Shown piece by piece: positions 32,096 through 58,947 of a stretch of 64,000 nt of DNA. Both the position numbers and the translations under genes were made by a program. How positions within the stretch are numbered: the first letter of the stretch is position 1; every line of letters starts with the position of its first letter. This DNA comes from Microbacterium sp. 1.5R (lineage in GTDB: Bacteria > Actinomycetota > Actinomycetes > Actinomycetales > Microbacteriaceae), in the NCBI RefSeq assembly GCF_001889265.1, contig NZ_CP018151.1, forward strand, positions 2,976,001-3,040,000, given 5' to 3'. Below the pieces are notes generated by a model. It searched no databases and was not told the DNA's origin. It saw only the letters and a list, made by a program, of their open reading frames with translations.

Positions 32096-32668
32096 TCAGA
32101 TGATCGCGGCGCGAAGCTCCGCGGCAGCGGCACCCACGTCGGGTGCACTGTAGATCGCGCTACCCGCAACGGCGATCTGAGCGCCGGGCTTCTGCACGGC
32201 CCCGATGCTCGCCGCGTTGACGCCGCCGGCGACGGAGAAGGGCACACCAGAGGCTTCGCCATCGCGCAGAAGCGTGTCGAAGGTGAAGCCGTCCTCGGCC
32301 TGCTCGTCGAGACCGGCGTGCATCTCGACGAATTCTGCACCCAGCTCGACGACCTCCTTCGCCCGTGCGGGCTTGTCCTTGACCCCGATGAGGTCGACGA
32401 CGATTCCCTTGCCGTGCGCCTTCGCTGCCTTGACAGCTCCCGCGATGGTGCTGTCACCCGCGGTCCCGAGAACGGGCACGAGATCTGCACCGGCCGCGAA
32501 GGCGATGTCGGCCTCGAGCTCGCCGGCATCCATCGTCTTCAGGTCGGCGAAGACGATCTTGTCCGGGTGGGCGTCCTTGATCGCGGTCACCGCACTGAGA
32601 CCTGAAGAAGACCGGTTGCCGATCTCGAGGCGAACTGGCTTCGCTCGCCCGCTGACTCCGGACCACAC
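32096..32668 (-). pseudogene. hxlA: 3-Hexulose-6-phosphate synthase, N-terminally truncated
   Basis: The frame encodes the orotidine-decarboxylase-fold HPS of the ribulose monophosphate pathway: GLSAVTAIKDAHPDKIVFAD, then LKTMDAGELEADIAF and KGIVVDLIGVKDK, ending AGSAIYSAPDVGAAAAELR. Whole proteins begin about 25-30 residues earlier with a MKLQVALD-type first strand. Here homology starts only at LEIGNRSSSG and is preceded by unrelated codons (GTG at 32668). The first barrel strand with a catalytic Asp should therefore be missing. No hexulose-phosphate isomerase gene is next to it. It is probably non-functional unless an unusual start exists. Confidence 0.65.
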
Positions 32669-32852: not shown

Positions 32853-33806
32853 CTATTCGGTCAAGTTCTCCTGCTGTGCGGGTCTCCACTGCTGGATATG
32901 GATGGTCTCGACCGCGAAGTCCACGAGCGCGCGGGCCCGGTCAGTTAGTCTCATCTGCCGCGGCCAGATGATCACAGCGGCTTCTGCGGAGAGTTCCGGG
33001 TGGATCGGCTTGGCGACGACCCGGCGACCTTCATAACTCACGTCGATGCTGGGTTTCTGGATCAGCAAGCTGTATCCGAACCCTCTGCCGACGAGAGACC
33101 GAACCAGTTCGAAGTTCGGGGTTCGATGTGCGATCTCCGGTTGCACACCTGCTCGAGTCAGCATGTCGAGCGTGTGGTCACCGCTCGGTGGGACGTCGAG
33201 AAGTATCAGTCGGTCTTCGCGAAGATCGTCGAGCGACACCGATTCATTCGCTGCCAGAGGATGCGCCGCCGGCAACAACACGTGAACCGACGTCTCATAG
33301 AGCAGCGCTTCGCTGATGTCTCCGGGCATATTGATGCGGTAAGCGATGATCACGTCCAGCTCGCCCGCTCGCAACCGAGGAAGCAGGTCTTTCATGGTTC
33401 CATCGACGATGCTGAGATCGACCTCCGGATGCCGCTCCGCGAAGCCCTGCATGAGCGATGGCAAGACCGTTGCGGCGAGGGTCGAGTAGCAACCGATCGC
33501 CACCGGTCCGCGCAGAACCCCCTCCCCATCACTGTCGCCGATACTGTGCTGCAGCTCGTTCGCGTCTCGCAGGAGCTCACCCGCTCGCTCGCGAAGGCGG
33601 AGTCCCGCCGGGGTCAGTGTGATCCCCCGTGCGCGATGGCGTACGCAGAGATGCGCATCGAGAGATGCCTCCAGCTCGCCGACGGCCAGCGACACAGCGT
33701 TGGACGTGACGTACATGGCTTCCGCAGCTCGAGCAAACGAGCCGTGATCAGCCGCCGCGCAGAACAACTCGAGTTGACGGAGGGTGATGCGAGTCCCGGC
33801 TCTCAT
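32853..33806 (-). CDS. LysR-family regulator of the P450 operon
   Basis: 317 aa from ATG at 33806 with TTGGAGCTGCGC before it; a TTG at 33836 is less likely. The helix-turn-helix segment is TLRQLELFCAAADHGSFARA then AEAMYVTSNAVSLAVGELEA. The effector domain runs from ~100. It is divergent from the P450 gene, separated by 96 bp, with a clear T-N11-A palindrome between them. The simplest reading is activation of the P450 operon by its substrate. Confidence 0.9.
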   Translation of the reverse strand: MRAGTRITLRQLELFCAAADHGSFARAAEAMYVTSNAVSLAVGELEASLDAHLCVRHRARGITLTPAGLRLRERAGELLRDANELQHSIGDSDGEGVLRGPVAIGCYSTLAATVLPSLMQGFAERHPEVDLSIVDGTMKDLLPRLRAGELDVIIAYRINMPGDISEALLYETSVHVLLPAAHPLAANESVSLDDLREDRLILLDVPPSGDHTLDMLTRAGVQPEIAHRTPNFELVRSLVGRGFGYSLLIQKPSIDVSYEGRRVVAKPIHPELSAEAAVIIWPRQMRLTDRARALVDFAVETIHIQQWRPAQQENLTE

Positions 33807-33838
33807 GCGCAGCTCCAATGCGTTTTGCACGAACAAAT

Positions 33839-33855
33839 GCTCAGTTGCGTTGAGC
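33839..33855. promoter_or_regulatory. LysR box between lysR and the P450 gene
   Basis: GCTCA-N7-TGAGC (17 bp), with T-N11-A spacing, 33 bp before the lysR start and 48 bp before the P450 start. Confidence 0.6.
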
Positions 33856-33902
33856 CTATCCGGGTTCGACAGTAGACGTATCAGCGACGAAGGAGTGCTC
33901 TG

Positions 33903-35087
33903 ATGCCAATGAAGGCACCGACCGCGGACTGGATCGACACCGCACAGCTACTGGACGACCCCTACCCGGCGTACGCCCGGCTTCGGGCGGAGTCTCCCGT
34001 GGCCTATGTGCCGCGCCTCAACCGCTATTTCATCTCGGGGTATCGCGACTGTTTCGACATCGAGATGGATCAGGACACGTTCAGTTCGTACGAGCGGGCG
34101 GAGACGTCGACCATGTTGAGAACCATGGGCCGCCCCCTGCTCCGCAAGGACGACCCTCAGCACAAAGCGGAACGCAACGCGATGGCTCCCGCACTGCGAC
34201 CCATCGCGGTGAAGAAGCACTGGAACAGCGCCTTCGAAGCCAACGCTCGTCGCCACCTGGACTCGCTGCGCGCCGCAGGGCCGGGCGCAGACCTCTTCCG
34301 ACTGTTCGCGGTTCCGTATGCGGCAGACAACCTCAGCGCTGTCATCGGGCTCCACGACATCACACCCGAGCAGATGATGGATTGGTCTCACACCCTGATC
34401 CGTGGTATCGGCAACGTCACCGGCGATCCAGAGGTGTGGGCAGAGACCACACGCGTCTGTGCGGAGATCGACGGCGCCATCGACGCCGCTCTGTCCTCGT
34501 CGAGAGACACGGATGCGCTGACGCTCATCTCGCAGATGACGCAGGCGGGCACCTCCGACGAGGATCTGCGAGCGAACGTGAGACTGACCGTCTCCGGCGG
34601 AATGAACGAGCCGAGCCACGTCATCGCGAGCGCCGTCTGGTGTCTGAGCGCCTTCCCCGCTCAACGTGAGCTCGTCGAATCGGGGCAAAGCACCTGGCGC
34701 GATGTGTTCGAGGAGACGGCTCGCTTCCACTCCCCGGTCGGGATGTATCCTCGCCGCGTCACGCGCGACACGTCCGTCGGTGGCGTCGCGATCCCCCGAG
34801 ATGCGACGGTCGCCGTGATTGTGGCGTCAGCGAATCGGGATTCCGCGCAGTTCGAGAATGCGGATCAGTTCGATCTGACCCGCGACGCCACTTCACATCT
34901 CGCTTTCGGCAACGGCACTCACATCTGTGCAGGCAATTGGGTCGCCCGGTCGATGATCGGCGACATCGCTCTTCCCCTTCTCTACGACGAGCTCCCCGAT
35001 CTTCGAGCCATCGATCCCGACACGACCGACTACCACGGCTGGGTCTTCCGCGGAGCACGATCTCTGCCCGTGACCTGGACCCCCTGA
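33903..35087 (+). CDS. Cytochrome P450, possibly an aromatic O-demethylase
   Basis: 394 aa, a soluble bacterial P450 with GAAGGAG before the ATG. The haem loop is HLAFGNGTHICAG with the Cys ligand at 342; the ExxR pair is ETAR at 271-274. The I helix reads SGGMNEPSH at 231-239, so the usual acid-Thr pair is replaced by Asn-Glu followed by Pro. From memory, GcoA (guaiacol O-demethylase, CYP255A) has a similar QEPGH stretch and a similar C-terminal GW-FRG-SL-VTW segment. That suggests oxidative demethylation of a methoxy-arene, releasing formaldehyde, but the group is divergent and this is inference. First gene of a four-gene operon with its redox partners. Confidence 0.92.
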   Translation: MPMKAPTADWIDTAQLLDDPYPAYARLRAESPVAYVPRLNRYFISGYRDCFDIEMDQDTFSSYERAETSTMLRTMGRPLLRKDDPQHKAERNAMAPALRPIAVKKHWNSAFEANARRHLDSLRAAGPGADLFRLFAVPYAADNLSAVIGLHDITPEQMMDWSHTLIRGIGNVTGDPEVWAETTRVCAEIDGAIDAALSSSRDTDALTLISQMTQAGTSDEDLRANVRLTVSGGMNEPSHVIASAVWCLSAFPAQRELVESGQSTWRDVFEETARFHSPVGMYPRRVTRDTSVGGVAIPRDATVAVIVASANRDSAQFENADQFDLTRDATSHLAFGNGTHICAGNWVARSMIGDIALPLLYDELPDLRAIDPDTTDYHGWVFRGARSLPVTWTP

Positions 35088-35103
35088 CGACGAAGGAGTC
35101 ATC

Positions 35104-35562
35104 ATGATCATCCATGTTCTTTTCGGAACGGAGAGCGGCAACGCTGAACTCGTCGCGAGCGACATCGCGGACGCTCTGCAGGACGAGCACGATGTTCACG
35201 TCGACGATCTGACGGATGCCGTGGACGACATCGGATCCGCCGACCTCACGCTCATCGTGTGCTCCACGCACGGCGAGGGCGATCTTCCGCAGAGCGCAGT
35301 GCCTTTCGTGGATGCGCTGCACGCTGATCGCCCGGACCTCACCGGCCTCACCTTCGCGATCCTCGGCCTCGGCGACAGTTCGTACCCCAATTACAGCAAG
35401 GGCAGCGAGCACGTCGAGGTGCTGCTCCGCGAGCTCGGGGCGAGCCGAATCGGCGAATACGGGCGACACGACGCCAATGGTCGATCGGACCCGTCTGATG
35501 TCGGTGTCGAGTGGGCCCGATCAGTGATCGAGACCCGGGCGCTCGTGAACAAGCACACCTGA
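35104..35562 (+). CDS. Flavodoxin-like FMN protein (P450 redox partner)
   Basis: 152 aa, one flavodoxin domain, with AAGGAG before the ATG. The FMN phosphate loop is LFGTESGNAELVA, the isoalloxazine loops are CSTHGEGDLPQSAVPF and LGLGDSSYPNYSKG. It resembles MioC and the FMN domain of P450 reductases. The P450cin system uses a flavodoxin (cindoxin) in place of a ferredoxin; the same arrangement is likely here. It lies 16 bp after the P450 gene and 26 bp before the HtaA-domain gene. Confidence 0.9.
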   Translation: MIIHVLFGTESGNAELVASDIADALQDEHDVHVDDLTDAVDDIGSADLTLIVCSTHGEGDLPQSAVPFVDALHADRPDLTGLTFAILGLGDSSYPNYSKGSEHVEVLLRELGASRIGEYGRHDANGRSDPSDVGVEWARSVIETRALVNKHT

Positions 35563-35588
35563 CTCTCGCGTGCTCATCGGAGGACATC

Positions 35589-36056
35589 ATGTTGCTCGAC
35601 ACCGTCTTGACGTGGGGATTCAGAACGTCGTTCATTCGATATGTAGAACGAGATCCCCAGGGACGGATTCATCTGGACAACGGAGCGACCAGAGCAGGAG
35701 ATCGCTTCACTTTTCCTGGAGCTTCGTCGCTCCGAGGTGGCGAAGAGCTGCGTTTCGCCGGCACCGTCGCGTTCGTCGCTCACTACGGGATGCTCTCGTT
35801 GCGCTTCGAAGACCCGCTGATCTCGCGCTCGGGAAGCTCCGCGTCGCTGTCCGTGACGGACACGGAGATCTCGACAGGGCGCCGCACCATCCTGGCACTC
35901 GAGGGGTCGCGCACCAGCGATGATGTGATCACCTTCGAATCCGCAGTTCTGACAGCTGATGGCGCCGAGCTCTTCCTTGACAGCTATCCGGCCGGCACAC
36001 CCTTCGAGGTTCCGACGGTCACACGAGCCCCCGTTCGATCGGAGCGGGTGTCGTGA
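35589..36056 (+). CDS. Stand-alone cytosolic HtaA-domain (haem-binding-like) protein
   Basis: 155 aa from ATG at 35589 with CGGAGGACATC before it; a longer frame is discarded. One HtaA (CR) domain: LTWGFRTSFIRYV at the start, GRIHLDNGATRAGDRFTF, and GTVAFVAHYGMLSLRFEDPL, followed by strand-rich sequence. HtaA domains bind haem on the surface of corynebacteria. Here there is no signal peptide, sortase motif or membrane anchor. Ser14, Tyr18 and His65 fit the haem-contact Ser, Tyr and His I recall for HtaA. It sits inside a P450 operon and overlaps the reductase start as GTGA. It may deliver or hold haem for the P450, or bind substrate or product; no tested precedent is known to me. Confidence 0.78.
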   Translation: MLLDTVLTWGFRTSFIRYVERDPQGRIHLDNGATRAGDRFTFPGASSLRGGEELRFAGTVAFVAHYGMLSLRFEDPLISRSGSSASLSVTDTEISTGRRTILALEGSRTSDDVITFESAVLTADGAELFLDSYPAGTPFEVPTVTRAPVRSERVS

Positions 36057-37261
36057 TCCACGACGAACCGCGAATGCGGATAGCCATCGTCGGCTCCGGT
36101 CCGTCCGGATGCTACAGCGCTCAGGCGCTCCGACGCGCATACCCGACGGCCGAGATCTGCGTCTTCGATGCGCTCAAGACGCCGTACGGTCTCATCAGAT
36201 ACGGGGTGGCCGCCGACCATCAGGGCACCAAGGCGATCGTCCGACAGTTCGCCCGGCAGTTCGAGAGGGAGGACGTCAGATTCTTCGGCGGCATAGAGGT
36301 GGGCACGCACGTCTCTCTCGACCAGCTTCGCGCGGCTTTCGACATCGTCGTGCTCGCTCACGGCCTGCACGGCGACACACCGCTCGAGACCCCTGGAGCA
36401 CGCGACGGCTCGGTCTATGGCGCTGGGCAAATCACCCGGCTCCTCAATGGGCATCCCGAGGAGTCCGGTCCCTCTCCCACGCTGGGCGCGTCACTCGCGA
36501 TCATCGGTCACGGCAACGTCGCGATGGATCTGGGCCGCCTCCTCCTGAAGAGAGGAGAGGATTTCACGGGGACCGATATCGACGACGAGGCACATCATGC
36601 TCTCTCGTGCCATCTCGACACCATTCATCTCATCGGGCGCTCAGCGCCGACTGAGGCGAAGTTCGACATCAAGATGGCGAGTGAGATCCTCGACCTGCCC
36701 GGCGTCACGCACTCCTATCACGGGATCGGGGAAGACGACGGCGGCCCGAATTCGCCGCGACGGGAGCTGTTCTCCGCCGCTCCGCGCGACGTCGACAGAC
36801 CGCGAGCACACGTGCACTGGTGGTTCCGCACGTCACCGGTGAGCGTCGAAAGAGAGGGAACGCAGATTGCCCTCGCCCTACGCACAGGCGAAGTCCAGAA
36901 GTCGACTGTCAGCGTCGACTCCATCATCTCGGCGATCGGCTTCTCGGCAGATGCGCGCCAACAGCTGTACCCCATCGATCCTGCAGCTCGAGAATCCGGC
37001 CGACTCGAACGCGGTCTGTACGTTGCGGGCTGGGCGCGTCGTGGGCCGCGCGGGACGATTCCCGACCAGCGAGCAGATGCTCGATCCCTCGCCGCTCTCA
37101 TCTCCTCTGAACTCCCTCATCCCGCGGGTATGCCCGGGATCGAGGCACTCGCAGACGAGGTCGCGAACGCAAGCGATTATGCGGCCTGGCTTGAAATAGA
37201 CAGGCTGGAGAGGGAGACGGCGATGCCGGGTCGAATCCGGAGCAAGAGTCGACGGGGCTGA
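36053..37261 (+). CDS. Adrenodoxin-reductase/FprA-type NADP reductase
   Basis: 402 aa from GTG at 36053 (ATG at 36074 possible). FAD motif IAIVGSGPSGCYSAQAL, PYGLIRYGVAADHQGTK, the NADP fold with IIGHGNVAMDLGRLLL, and the family segment GWARRGPRGTIPDQRADA near the C-terminus. It should pass electrons from NADPH to the flavodoxin encoded two genes upstream, and so to the P450. It ends the operon. The downstream tetR is convergent, 9 bp away. Confidence 0.92.
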   Translation: MIHDEPRMRIAIVGSGPSGCYSAQALRRAYPTAEICVFDALKTPYGLIRYGVAADHQGTKAIVRQFARQFEREDVRFFGGIEVGTHVSLDQLRAAFDIVVLAHGLHGDTPLETPGARDGSVYGAGQITRLLNGHPEESGPSPTLGASLAIIGHGNVAMDLGRLLLKRGEDFTGTDIDDEAHHALSCHLDTIHLIGRSAPTEAKFDIKMASEILDLPGVTHSYHGIGEDDGGPNSPRRELFSAAPRDVDRPRAHVHWWFRTSPVSVEREGTQIALALRTGEVQKSTVSVDSIISAIGFSADARQQLYPIDPAARESGRLERGLYVAGWARRGPRGTIPDQRADARSLAALISSELPHPAGMPGIEALADEVANASDYAAWLEIDRLERETAMPGRIRSKSRRG

Positions 37262-57630: not shown

Positions 57631-58947
57631 CTAGGACGCGGAAACGTCGGAGTCGGCGTTCCGCGGCAGATCCAGGTACGGGAACGGGCCGACGACAGCG
57701 CGCACCTGTTTGATACGACCGCCGTGATCGCCCCAATGCACGACCAGTTCCGCCCCGATGTCGGAATGCTCCAGACCCACCGTCGCCTGCGAGATCAGCT
57801 CGCGGTAGTAGTAGCTGTAGACGACTGCGGAGGAGACGCCCACAGCGACTCCCTCGTGCGTGACGAGGTCGGCGTGCCCACCCGCCGGCTGCTGTGGAGA
57901 GACGGGGAACTCGATGAACTTGTACGGCTCACCGGGCCGCAGATAGGAGGCGAAGATGTCAGTCACGTCATCGGGATTCCAACGCAGGATCACCGTCTTT
58001 CGCCGAGGCGCGGCGGACTCGGCATCGAACGCCTCCCTGCCGATGAACTCGTGGTTCGACTTGCCCATCCATTCCCAGTTCACCTCATGGGGCGTGCGGG
58101 TCCTCGCACGGGTGTCCGCCGGGTCGATGCTGCCGGTGTACTCCGCTGCCAGAAGTGCACCCACGGAGCTGCGCTGAACGGCGGGATCCAGCAGCATCGA
58201 GGCGAGCCAGGTCACTCCTGATTGAGGGAAGCCGCCCTCGGTGTGGTTCACCGCGTAGGTCCTCCAGCCGAGCCTGACGATCCCCAGCGGGAGCCCCGCT
58301 CGGTATACGGCGTCGTAGACCGCGGGGCCTGCCGCCAGTGGTCCGCGGACCTCGTACCCCAGGTTTCCAGACATGCTGATACGTGACAGTTCGATCTCCG
58401 CCTCGCCGTCGACGCCGGGGACGGTGACGGGCTCGGCCGCGAGGAAGGCGAGGTCGCGGATGCCCCCGCCGAACAGCTTCTCCAGCACTTCCGCCGACTT
58501 GGGTCCGGCCACCTGGAGGATGAAGATCTCGTTGACCTCGATCGTGACGTCGAGGTTCAGTCTCTTCACCTGGAAGAGCGGCCAGGGCGGCCCCGCCAGC
58601 ATCCGGAAACGTGCCTCGCCGTCACGCACCGTCAGGGCGTGGCTCGCGATGAGCCCCTGATCGTCCAGCATCACGAGGTGTTTCGAGCGTCCGATCGGCC
58701 ATTTCCAGACATCGTTGATGCTGAGACGCGACAGAAAATCCTGCGCTTCCGCACCGGAGATGACATATTCGATGGGTCCGACGAGATTGGCCGCAAGGTA
58801 GACGCCGTCCTTCCAGGACATCGACTCCCGTTGCCACCCGTCTCCCTCCCAGACACGCATATGGCCCCAGATCGGCGCCAGACTCTTGATGTCCGGGTAG
58901 TTCGGCACGCCACTGCCGCCGGGAGCAGGGGGAAGGAGCGCGCTCAT
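57631..58947 (-). CDS. GcvT-type aminomethyltransferase, LigM/DesA-like O-demethylase candidate
   Basis: 438 aa. Tetrahydrofolate-dependent transferase fold: ESMSWKDGVYLAANLVGPIE, AEAQDFLSRLSINDVWKWPI, GRSKHLVMLDDQGLIASHAL, MSGNLGYEVRGPLA. The order and length match LigM/DesA, which move a methyl group from vanillate or syringate to THF, more than the glycine cleavage T protein (~370 aa). No other glycine cleavage gene is present. Its start overlaps the PaaI-like stop as ATGA. A PurU gene is nearby, consistent with C1 recycling. Confidence 0.8.
   Translation of the reverse strand: MSALLPPAPGGSGVPNYPDIKSLAPIWGHMRVWEGDGWQRESMSWKDGVYLAANLVGPIEYVISGAEAQDFLSRLSINDVWKWPIGRSKHLVMLDDQGLIASHALTVRDGEARFRMLAGPPWPLFQVKRLNLDVTIEVNEIFILQVAGPKSAEVLEKLFGGGIRDLAFLAAEPVTVPGVDGEAEIELSRISMSGNLGYEVRGPLAAGPAVYDAVYRAGLPLGIVRLGWRTYAVNHTEGGFPQSGVTWLASMLLDPAVQRSSVGALLAAEYTGSIDPADTRARTRTPHEVNWEWMGKSNHEFIGREAFDAESAAPRRKTVILRWNPDDVTDIFASYLRPGEPYKFIEFPVSPQQPAGGHADLVTHEGVAVGVSSAVVYSYYYRELISQATVGLEHSDIGAELVVHWGDHGGRIKQVRAVVGPFPYLDLPRNADSDVSAS

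Follow-up and report, generated by a model that had tools for sequence, protein, structure and literature searches.

The window analysed here, a 64,000-nucleotide stretch of the Microbacterium sp. 1.5R genome (contig NZ_CP018151.1, positions 2,976,001 to 3,040,000), contains a LysR gene divergent from a same-strand set of four genes encoding a cytochrome P450, a flavodoxin, an HtaA-domain protein and an FprA-type reductase. The LysR-family regulator (32853..33836, − strand; PF03466 8e-40, PF00126 2e-17) has a possible inner ATG start at 33806 and is separated from the P450 gene by a short intergenic region (33837..33902) that, judged from its sequence, presumably holds the LysR operator and the operon promoter. 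The P450 of 394 amino acids (aa) (33903..35087, + strand; PF00067) carries the Cys-ligand motif FGNGTHICAG and the I-helix motif GGMNEP. It is followed on the + strand by a cindoxin-like flavodoxin (35104..35562, 152 aa; PF00258 5e-26), a single-domain HtaA/CR protein predicted to be cytosolic (35589..36056, 155 aa) and an NADPH reductase of the adrenodoxin reductase/FprA type (36053..37261, 402 aa; PF07992), whose gene overlaps the HtaA gene by 4 base pairs (bp). Gene order and identities were computed directly, and the Pfam matches agree for each gene with the names given in the initial annotation.

The small protein matches the HtaA profile PF04213 with 77.0 bits against a curated cut-off of 24, as had been expected of it, and its computed fold is the CR beta-sandwich. 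Using the residue definitions for the CR-domain pocket (axial Tyr, Ser, helper His or Tyr, propionate Tyr) in the available passages of PMC12494546, we find the complete haem-pocket pattern: Ser14 four residues before the axial Tyr18, the helper His65 and the propionate Tyr133. Binding of one haem through the axial Tyr and the helper His is thus strongly indicated by the predicted pocket. Among the short HtaA proteins that we collected (n = 63), the axial Tyr and the propionate Tyr are present in all 63, the helper is His in 55 and Tyr in 8, and the Ser is kept in 59. The propionate Tyr is found in 63/63 short proteins versus 86/100 long-frame domains, so that the pocket is at least equally conserved in the short ones, with a conservation that may be inflated because the members were found by sequence similarity. 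Databases label these proteins "HtaA domain-containing" or hypothetical.

The first strand of the HtaA domain in the window begins at residue 5, and neither a signal peptide nor a membrane anchor of the kind that marks secreted or surface haemophores is found in the protein. By a crude hydropathy screen a signal-like N-terminus is absent in 62/63 short HtaA proteins: no protein has a 19-residue stretch above 1.6 (0/63) and one exceeds 1.6 in its first 40 aa (1/63), compared with scores of 2.05–2.51 for presumed secreted proteins (n = 4). These results uphold the earlier description of the protein as signal-less. No second HtaA domain was found in this genome, which together with the missing signal-like N-terminus opposes a part in haem uptake here.

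HtaA matches occur in 137 of the 366 genomes of the genus Microbacterium. We define as short every listed match with an open frame of at most 450 aa (n = 58; four matches of 451–800 aa were excluded), and second fragments of a single P450 gene were entered once in the linkage counts. On the same contig, 24/58 short genes lie within 3 kilobases (kb) of a P450 gene, 41/58 within 10 kb and 49/58 within 12 kb, where uniform placement in 3.6 megabases gives an expectation of about 0.3, 1.0 and 1.2 of 58, respectively; genomes with a short HtaA gene carry a mean of 2.8 P450s each. None of the 43 long matches, presumed surface proteins taken only from genomes searched for P450s and in some cases domains of one protein, lies within 20 kb of a P450 (0.4 expected). 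Linkage of this kind, which the initial annotation had asked for in other genomes, recurs across many of them.

Because several loci are close homologues, the 58 short genes are not independent, and 63 short genes form 50 clusters at 60% identity (L074 and L151–L155, repeats or surface-type, were left out). A P450 lies within eight genes in 34 clusters, and a P450 or a P450-type redox partner in 40. The immediate same-strand neighbour is a P450 or redox-partner gene in 19/50 clusters and a LysR gene in 7/50. Beyond the annotated plasmids, genes were called with a codon-based caller that leaves some N-termini doubtful. Apart from P450, flavodoxin, FprA and LysR, neighbours are labelled by their similarity to seed proteins; Pfam checks covered one ferredoxin and one ferredoxin reductase among them, and the [3Fe-4S] label is motif-based.

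In a single tree that holds 63 short domains together with 100 long-frame ones, one edge (support 0.97) separates the two sets without error. The long-frame domains were gathered with a profile built from the short domains, and L112, L113, L114 and L117 were removed from them because the same genes stand among the short ones (L141–L143, L146). Searching proteins with only the window HtaA as query returned nothing beyond a 98% relative, the word filter presumably missing divergent ones, and a phylum search with the HtaA alignment returned mostly long open frames. The P450s nearest to the short HtaA genes (n = 29 pairs) fall into 14 groups when clustered by single linkage at 40% identity, and HtaA and P450 covary overall (r 0.55, 0/5000 shuffles). 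Their redox partners, labelled by seed similarity, vary among flavodoxin, ferredoxin and PDR. The initial annotation had coupled HtaA to a P450 plus a flavodoxin: the link to the P450 stands, and a dependence on flavodoxin is rejected because ferredoxin and PDR-type partners also occur beside HtaA.

The same annotation had proposed a complete NADPH-reductase–flavodoxin–P450 set, and the three genes are indeed found together, with best solved matches of the corresponding types. The best PDB match of the flavodoxin is cindoxin (4oxx, E 4e-28), and the closest solved structures to the reductase are adrenodoxin reductase (1cjc, E 2.5e-42) and FprA (1lqt, E 5e-37). For the P450, 6g71 is by far the best solved match (E 2e-103), GcoA-type aromatic O-demethylases reaching about 1e-43. 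Aligned over 391 residues with 350 bits, the window P450 is a divergent relative of 6g71; we take 6g71 to be CYP1232A24, a methoxy-aromatic demethylase that Klenk et al. (2019) reportedly described from a papaverine-degrading Arthrobacter. The I-helices of the two P450s read GGMNEP in the window and GGLNEP in 6g71, with GGxNEP common to both. This motif replaces the usual acid-alcohol pair in the window P450, in L039 and L080 and in the P450-FprA-flavodoxin fusions described below; the remaining HtaA-linked P450s have varied I-helices, some with the usual AGxDT/ET and some GMVAP- or SDAP-like. We infer a three-component P450 monooxygenase in which electrons would flow from NADPH through the FprA-type FAD reductase and the cindoxin-like FMN flavodoxin to the P450, probably a LysR-induced aromatic O-demethylase or hydroxylase.

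Elsewhere in the window, one frame scores above the cut-off as a member of the 3-(3-hydroxyphenyl)propionate hydroxylase subfamily, and an extradiol dioxygenase, FAH-type hydrolases and a LigM/DesA-like O-demethylase relative (57631-58947, − strand) score below theirs. About 0.2 kb from the LysR gene lies an N-terminally short 3-hexulose-6-phosphate synthase frame (32096-32668, − strand), whose match begins at profile position 36 and reaches 190.6 bits against a cut-off of 200; a full-length copy is present elsewhere in the genome. The aromatic-catabolism relatives and the 3-hexulose-6-phosphate synthase frames are compatible with an O-demethylating P450 and do not prove one.

The four parts recur in other arrangements. 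In the window they are separate genes in the order P450-flavodoxin-HtaA-FprA, and in a genome of another family (L150) in the order FprA-flavodoxin-P450-HtaA. Beside LysR and HtaA genes, five loci encode single P450-FprA-flavodoxin chains of about 990-1010 aa (L034:8682-11660, L035:8969-11977, L045:9450-12416, L047:9126-12107, L143:5812-8835). A reverse FprA-flavodoxin-P450 fusion of 1004 aa (L041:4838-7852) contains a different P450 and overlaps its HtaA gene by 4 bp; this P450 is 67% identical to that of L150 and 26% identical to that of the window. Searches with the P450-FprA-flavodoxin chain gave 282 matches; 120 of these were listed, and all three Pfam domains are present in 119 of the listed ones. 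Named sources of relatives include Microbacterium, Arthrobacter, Leucobacter, Citricoccus and Kineococcus. From its domain content, the chain appears to be a self-sufficient P450 whose reductase part is of the adrenodoxin reductase type. In a search of the genus starting from the fusion (295 genomes), HtaA lies within 1.5 kb of 5/5 intact chains and likewise of a broken chain (G265); a C-terminal chain piece at a contig end (G213) has no HtaA within its short locus. Short HtaA genes likewise adjoin, or lie close to, CYP116-like P450-PDR fusions of about 750 aa (L058, L158).

Short HtaA genes are found outside the genus and on plasmids as well. AAur_pTC20205 (L081:9971-10468), annotated as a conserved hypothetical protein of plasmid pTC2 of P. 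aurescens TC1, is a short HtaA protein encoded near P450 genes and ipuC, and a plasmid of R. erythropolis R138 carries the order P450-ferredoxin-ferredoxin reductase-HtaA. In Citricoccus (L076) no P450 is annotated within 10 kb of HtaA, and the codon-based caller gives a 303-aa P450 frame with a haem-ligand motif between two HtaA genes. Short HtaA genes with no P450 within eight genes were seen in Promicromonospora and Myceligenerans (L002, L003) and in a relative (L149). In a P450 operon of Rhodococcus opacus (L200), a candidate substitute for HtaA reached 3.7 bits and was rejected.

We tentatively read the operon as a three-component P450 monooxygenase with a cytosolic CR protein that most likely serves the P450 as a haem donor or buffer. 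The divergent LysR would induce the operon, and the FprA-type FAD reductase would take electrons from NADPH and pass them through the FMN flavodoxin to the P450. The CR protein, made together with the P450 in the cytosol, would bind one haem by its axial Tyr and helper His, hold it and hand it over to newly made P450, and cofactor supply would thereby match P450 induction. The short proteins recur in P450 or oxygenase clusters, are predicted to stay in the cytosol and keep an intact pocket; the simplest function joining these features is handling of haem for the oxygenase, most likely its holding and donation. Delivery to the P450 is the least certain part. In vitro, according to the available passages of PMC8027190, a Dietzia HtaA of the surface type took up haem from a P450, from lignin peroxidase and from catalase and not from cytochrome c, and CR domains can therefore exchange haem with P450s. 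A broader proposal, which we regard as possible but rather doubtful, is that a distinct clade of cytosolic CR haemoproteins in Actinobacteria, foremost in Micrococcales, consists of dedicated haem donors for P450s: operon-encoded chaperones that accompany dissimilar P450s with any redox partner and, in some genera, new single-chain P450-FprA-flavodoxin proteins.

Several observations weigh against haem donation to the P450. We know of no need for a dedicated haem donor among P450s in general. No P450 lies within 12 kb of nine of the 58 listed short HtaA genes, among them one (G353) where P450 sequence missed by the family search adjoins HtaA, and 16/50 clusters have none within eight genes, several of these with one about 10 kb off. 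Outside the genus, a P450 lies within 12 kb of HtaA in 5/12 genomes examined, a chosen subset of the 75 genomes with a match that includes one surface-type protein (G1033) and one locus without wide flank (G946). On Rhodococcus plasmids (L077, L079) HtaA stands beside a non-haem oxygenase in Rieske dioxygenase-PDR-HtaA operons that are followed after about 3 kb by a P450; in Mycolicibacterium (L078) there is no P450 within 10 kb of HtaA; and two Rhodococcus plasmids encode related P450s (42-43% identical) around which no HtaA gene is listed. At the order level HtaA lies within 1.5 kb of 1/9 full-length fusions, that one from the same family, and of 0/8 fusions outside the family, and we reject an obligatory association of HtaA with the fusion. 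After removal of similar P450s, the covariation is weak (r 0.17, 170/5000 shuffles). In view of these observations we regard HtaA as an accessory that is not essential to every such P450. In the Dietzia experiments, moreover, HtaA received haem from the P450, the reverse of donation (available passages of PMC8027190).

Other functions were considered for the CR protein. The fold might have been repurposed to bind a hydrophobic substrate or product of catabolic oxygenases instead of haem, with the P450 linkage reflecting shared xenobiotic catabolic clusters. This is unlikely, as the short proteins keep the haem-pocket residues at least as well as the long-frame domains (propionate Tyr 63/63 vs 86/100) and in 19/50 clusters HtaA directly adjoins a P450 or redox gene. 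The protein could also act as a Tyr-ligated haem enzyme or scavenger that clears the hydrogen peroxide formed when turnover of the P450 or a flavoprotein is uncoupled, and so protects the oxygenase. P450s, Rieske dioxygenase-PDR pairs and flavin monooxygenases can leak reactive oxygen, and a Tyr haem ligand is also found in catalases. The presence of HtaA near all three kinds of oxygenase or their relatives, and the pairing of the axial Tyr with a helper His or helper Tyr in 63/63 short proteins, would suit such a role, which we nonetheless judge improbable given that the CR domains studied carry haem, binding it with dissociation constants of 0.8-22 nM (available passages of PMC12494546). We give a similarly low probability to a haem-dependent co-regulator that informs the adjacent LysR or another regulator of haem supply before the P450 is made. 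LysR is the immediate same-strand neighbour of HtaA in 7/50 clusters, with small overlaps in most of the cases listed and with different P450s; more clusters (19/50) have a P450 or redox-partner gene in that position, many loci have another or no regulator adjoining HtaA, and LysR is divergent in the window.

The protein might instead salvage or hold haem that damaged or surplus P450 sets free, and so keep free haem low. This would follow the direction of transfer and the range of donors seen for the Dietzia HtaA; that protein is a surface haem-uptake protein encoded beside heme ABC transporter genes (available passages of PMC8027190), and we find salvage very unlikely for the window protein. 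HtaA is otherwise known from haem uptake (available passages of PMC12494546 and PMC8027190), and an unrelated haem-uptake remnant could lie beside a P450 operon by chance. We reject this as scarcely credible: the linkage is far above the uniform-placement expectation (49/58 listed short genes within 12 kb vs ~1.2) and absent for long HtaA genes, the genes overlap, the short proteins form their own clade and this genome has no other HtaA domain.

How bacterial P450s acquire haem in the cell is, to our knowledge, poorly understood, and we know of no dedicated bacterial P450 haem donor; our search found no open-access paper on one. If haem donation holds, the CR protein would represent a new class of P450 accessory, P450 haem loading would be directly testable with a 155-residue protein, and co-expression could raise the yield of holo-P450. 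Even with another role, a cytosolic, P450-linked CR domain with an intact pocket revises the view of HtaA as serving surface haem uptake only. The fused P450-FprA-flavodoxin proteins are candidate self-sufficient biocatalysts.

The initial annotation knew of no described P450 system of this composition, a claim that stands in part; it does not include the fused forms or the distinct clade of short HtaA proteins. The P450-flavodoxin-reductase chain is of known types, because its best solved matches are known and an Arthrobacter cluster has been proposed, as described below. Neither an HtaA gene in a P450 operon nor a natural P450-FprA-flavodoxin fusion is mentioned in the open-access passages of PMC10144233, PMC8027190, PMC10060970, PMC9868604, PMC3509625, PMC5575160 and PMC9687028. 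With the domain and the redox chain both known, it is the combination with a signal-less HtaA that, as far as these passages go, is apparently undescribed.

As in the P450cin-cindoxin-cindoxin reductase system (available passages of PMC9687028), a P450, an FMN flavodoxin that feeds it and an FAD-containing NADPH reductase are encoded together in the window, and the flavodoxin is closest to cindoxin. The operon differs from P450cin in that its P450 is closest to 6g71, its reductase is of the adrenodoxin reductase/FprA type and it encodes an extra HtaA protein. The CYP1232A24/CYP1232F1 system of papaverine-degrading Arthrobacter is also close, 6g71 (presumably CYP1232A24) being the closest solved P450, of which the window P450 is a divergent relative. 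Klenk et al. 2019 are reported in the available passages of PMC9687028 as proposing a cluster there with a flavodoxin and a flavodoxin reductase. Compared with the CR proteins HtaA, ChtA and HtaB of Corynebacterium, the window type has one domain and no signal-like N-terminus, is encoded in a P450 operon and belongs to a clade separate from the long-frame domains. Like the self-sufficient P450s that we know as the CYP102 and CYP116B types, relatives of the window parts are joined in one chain of about 1000 aa; they differ from these in the order P450-FprA-flavodoxin or FprA-flavodoxin-P450 and in having an adrenodoxin reductase-type domain in place of a CPR or PFOR module.

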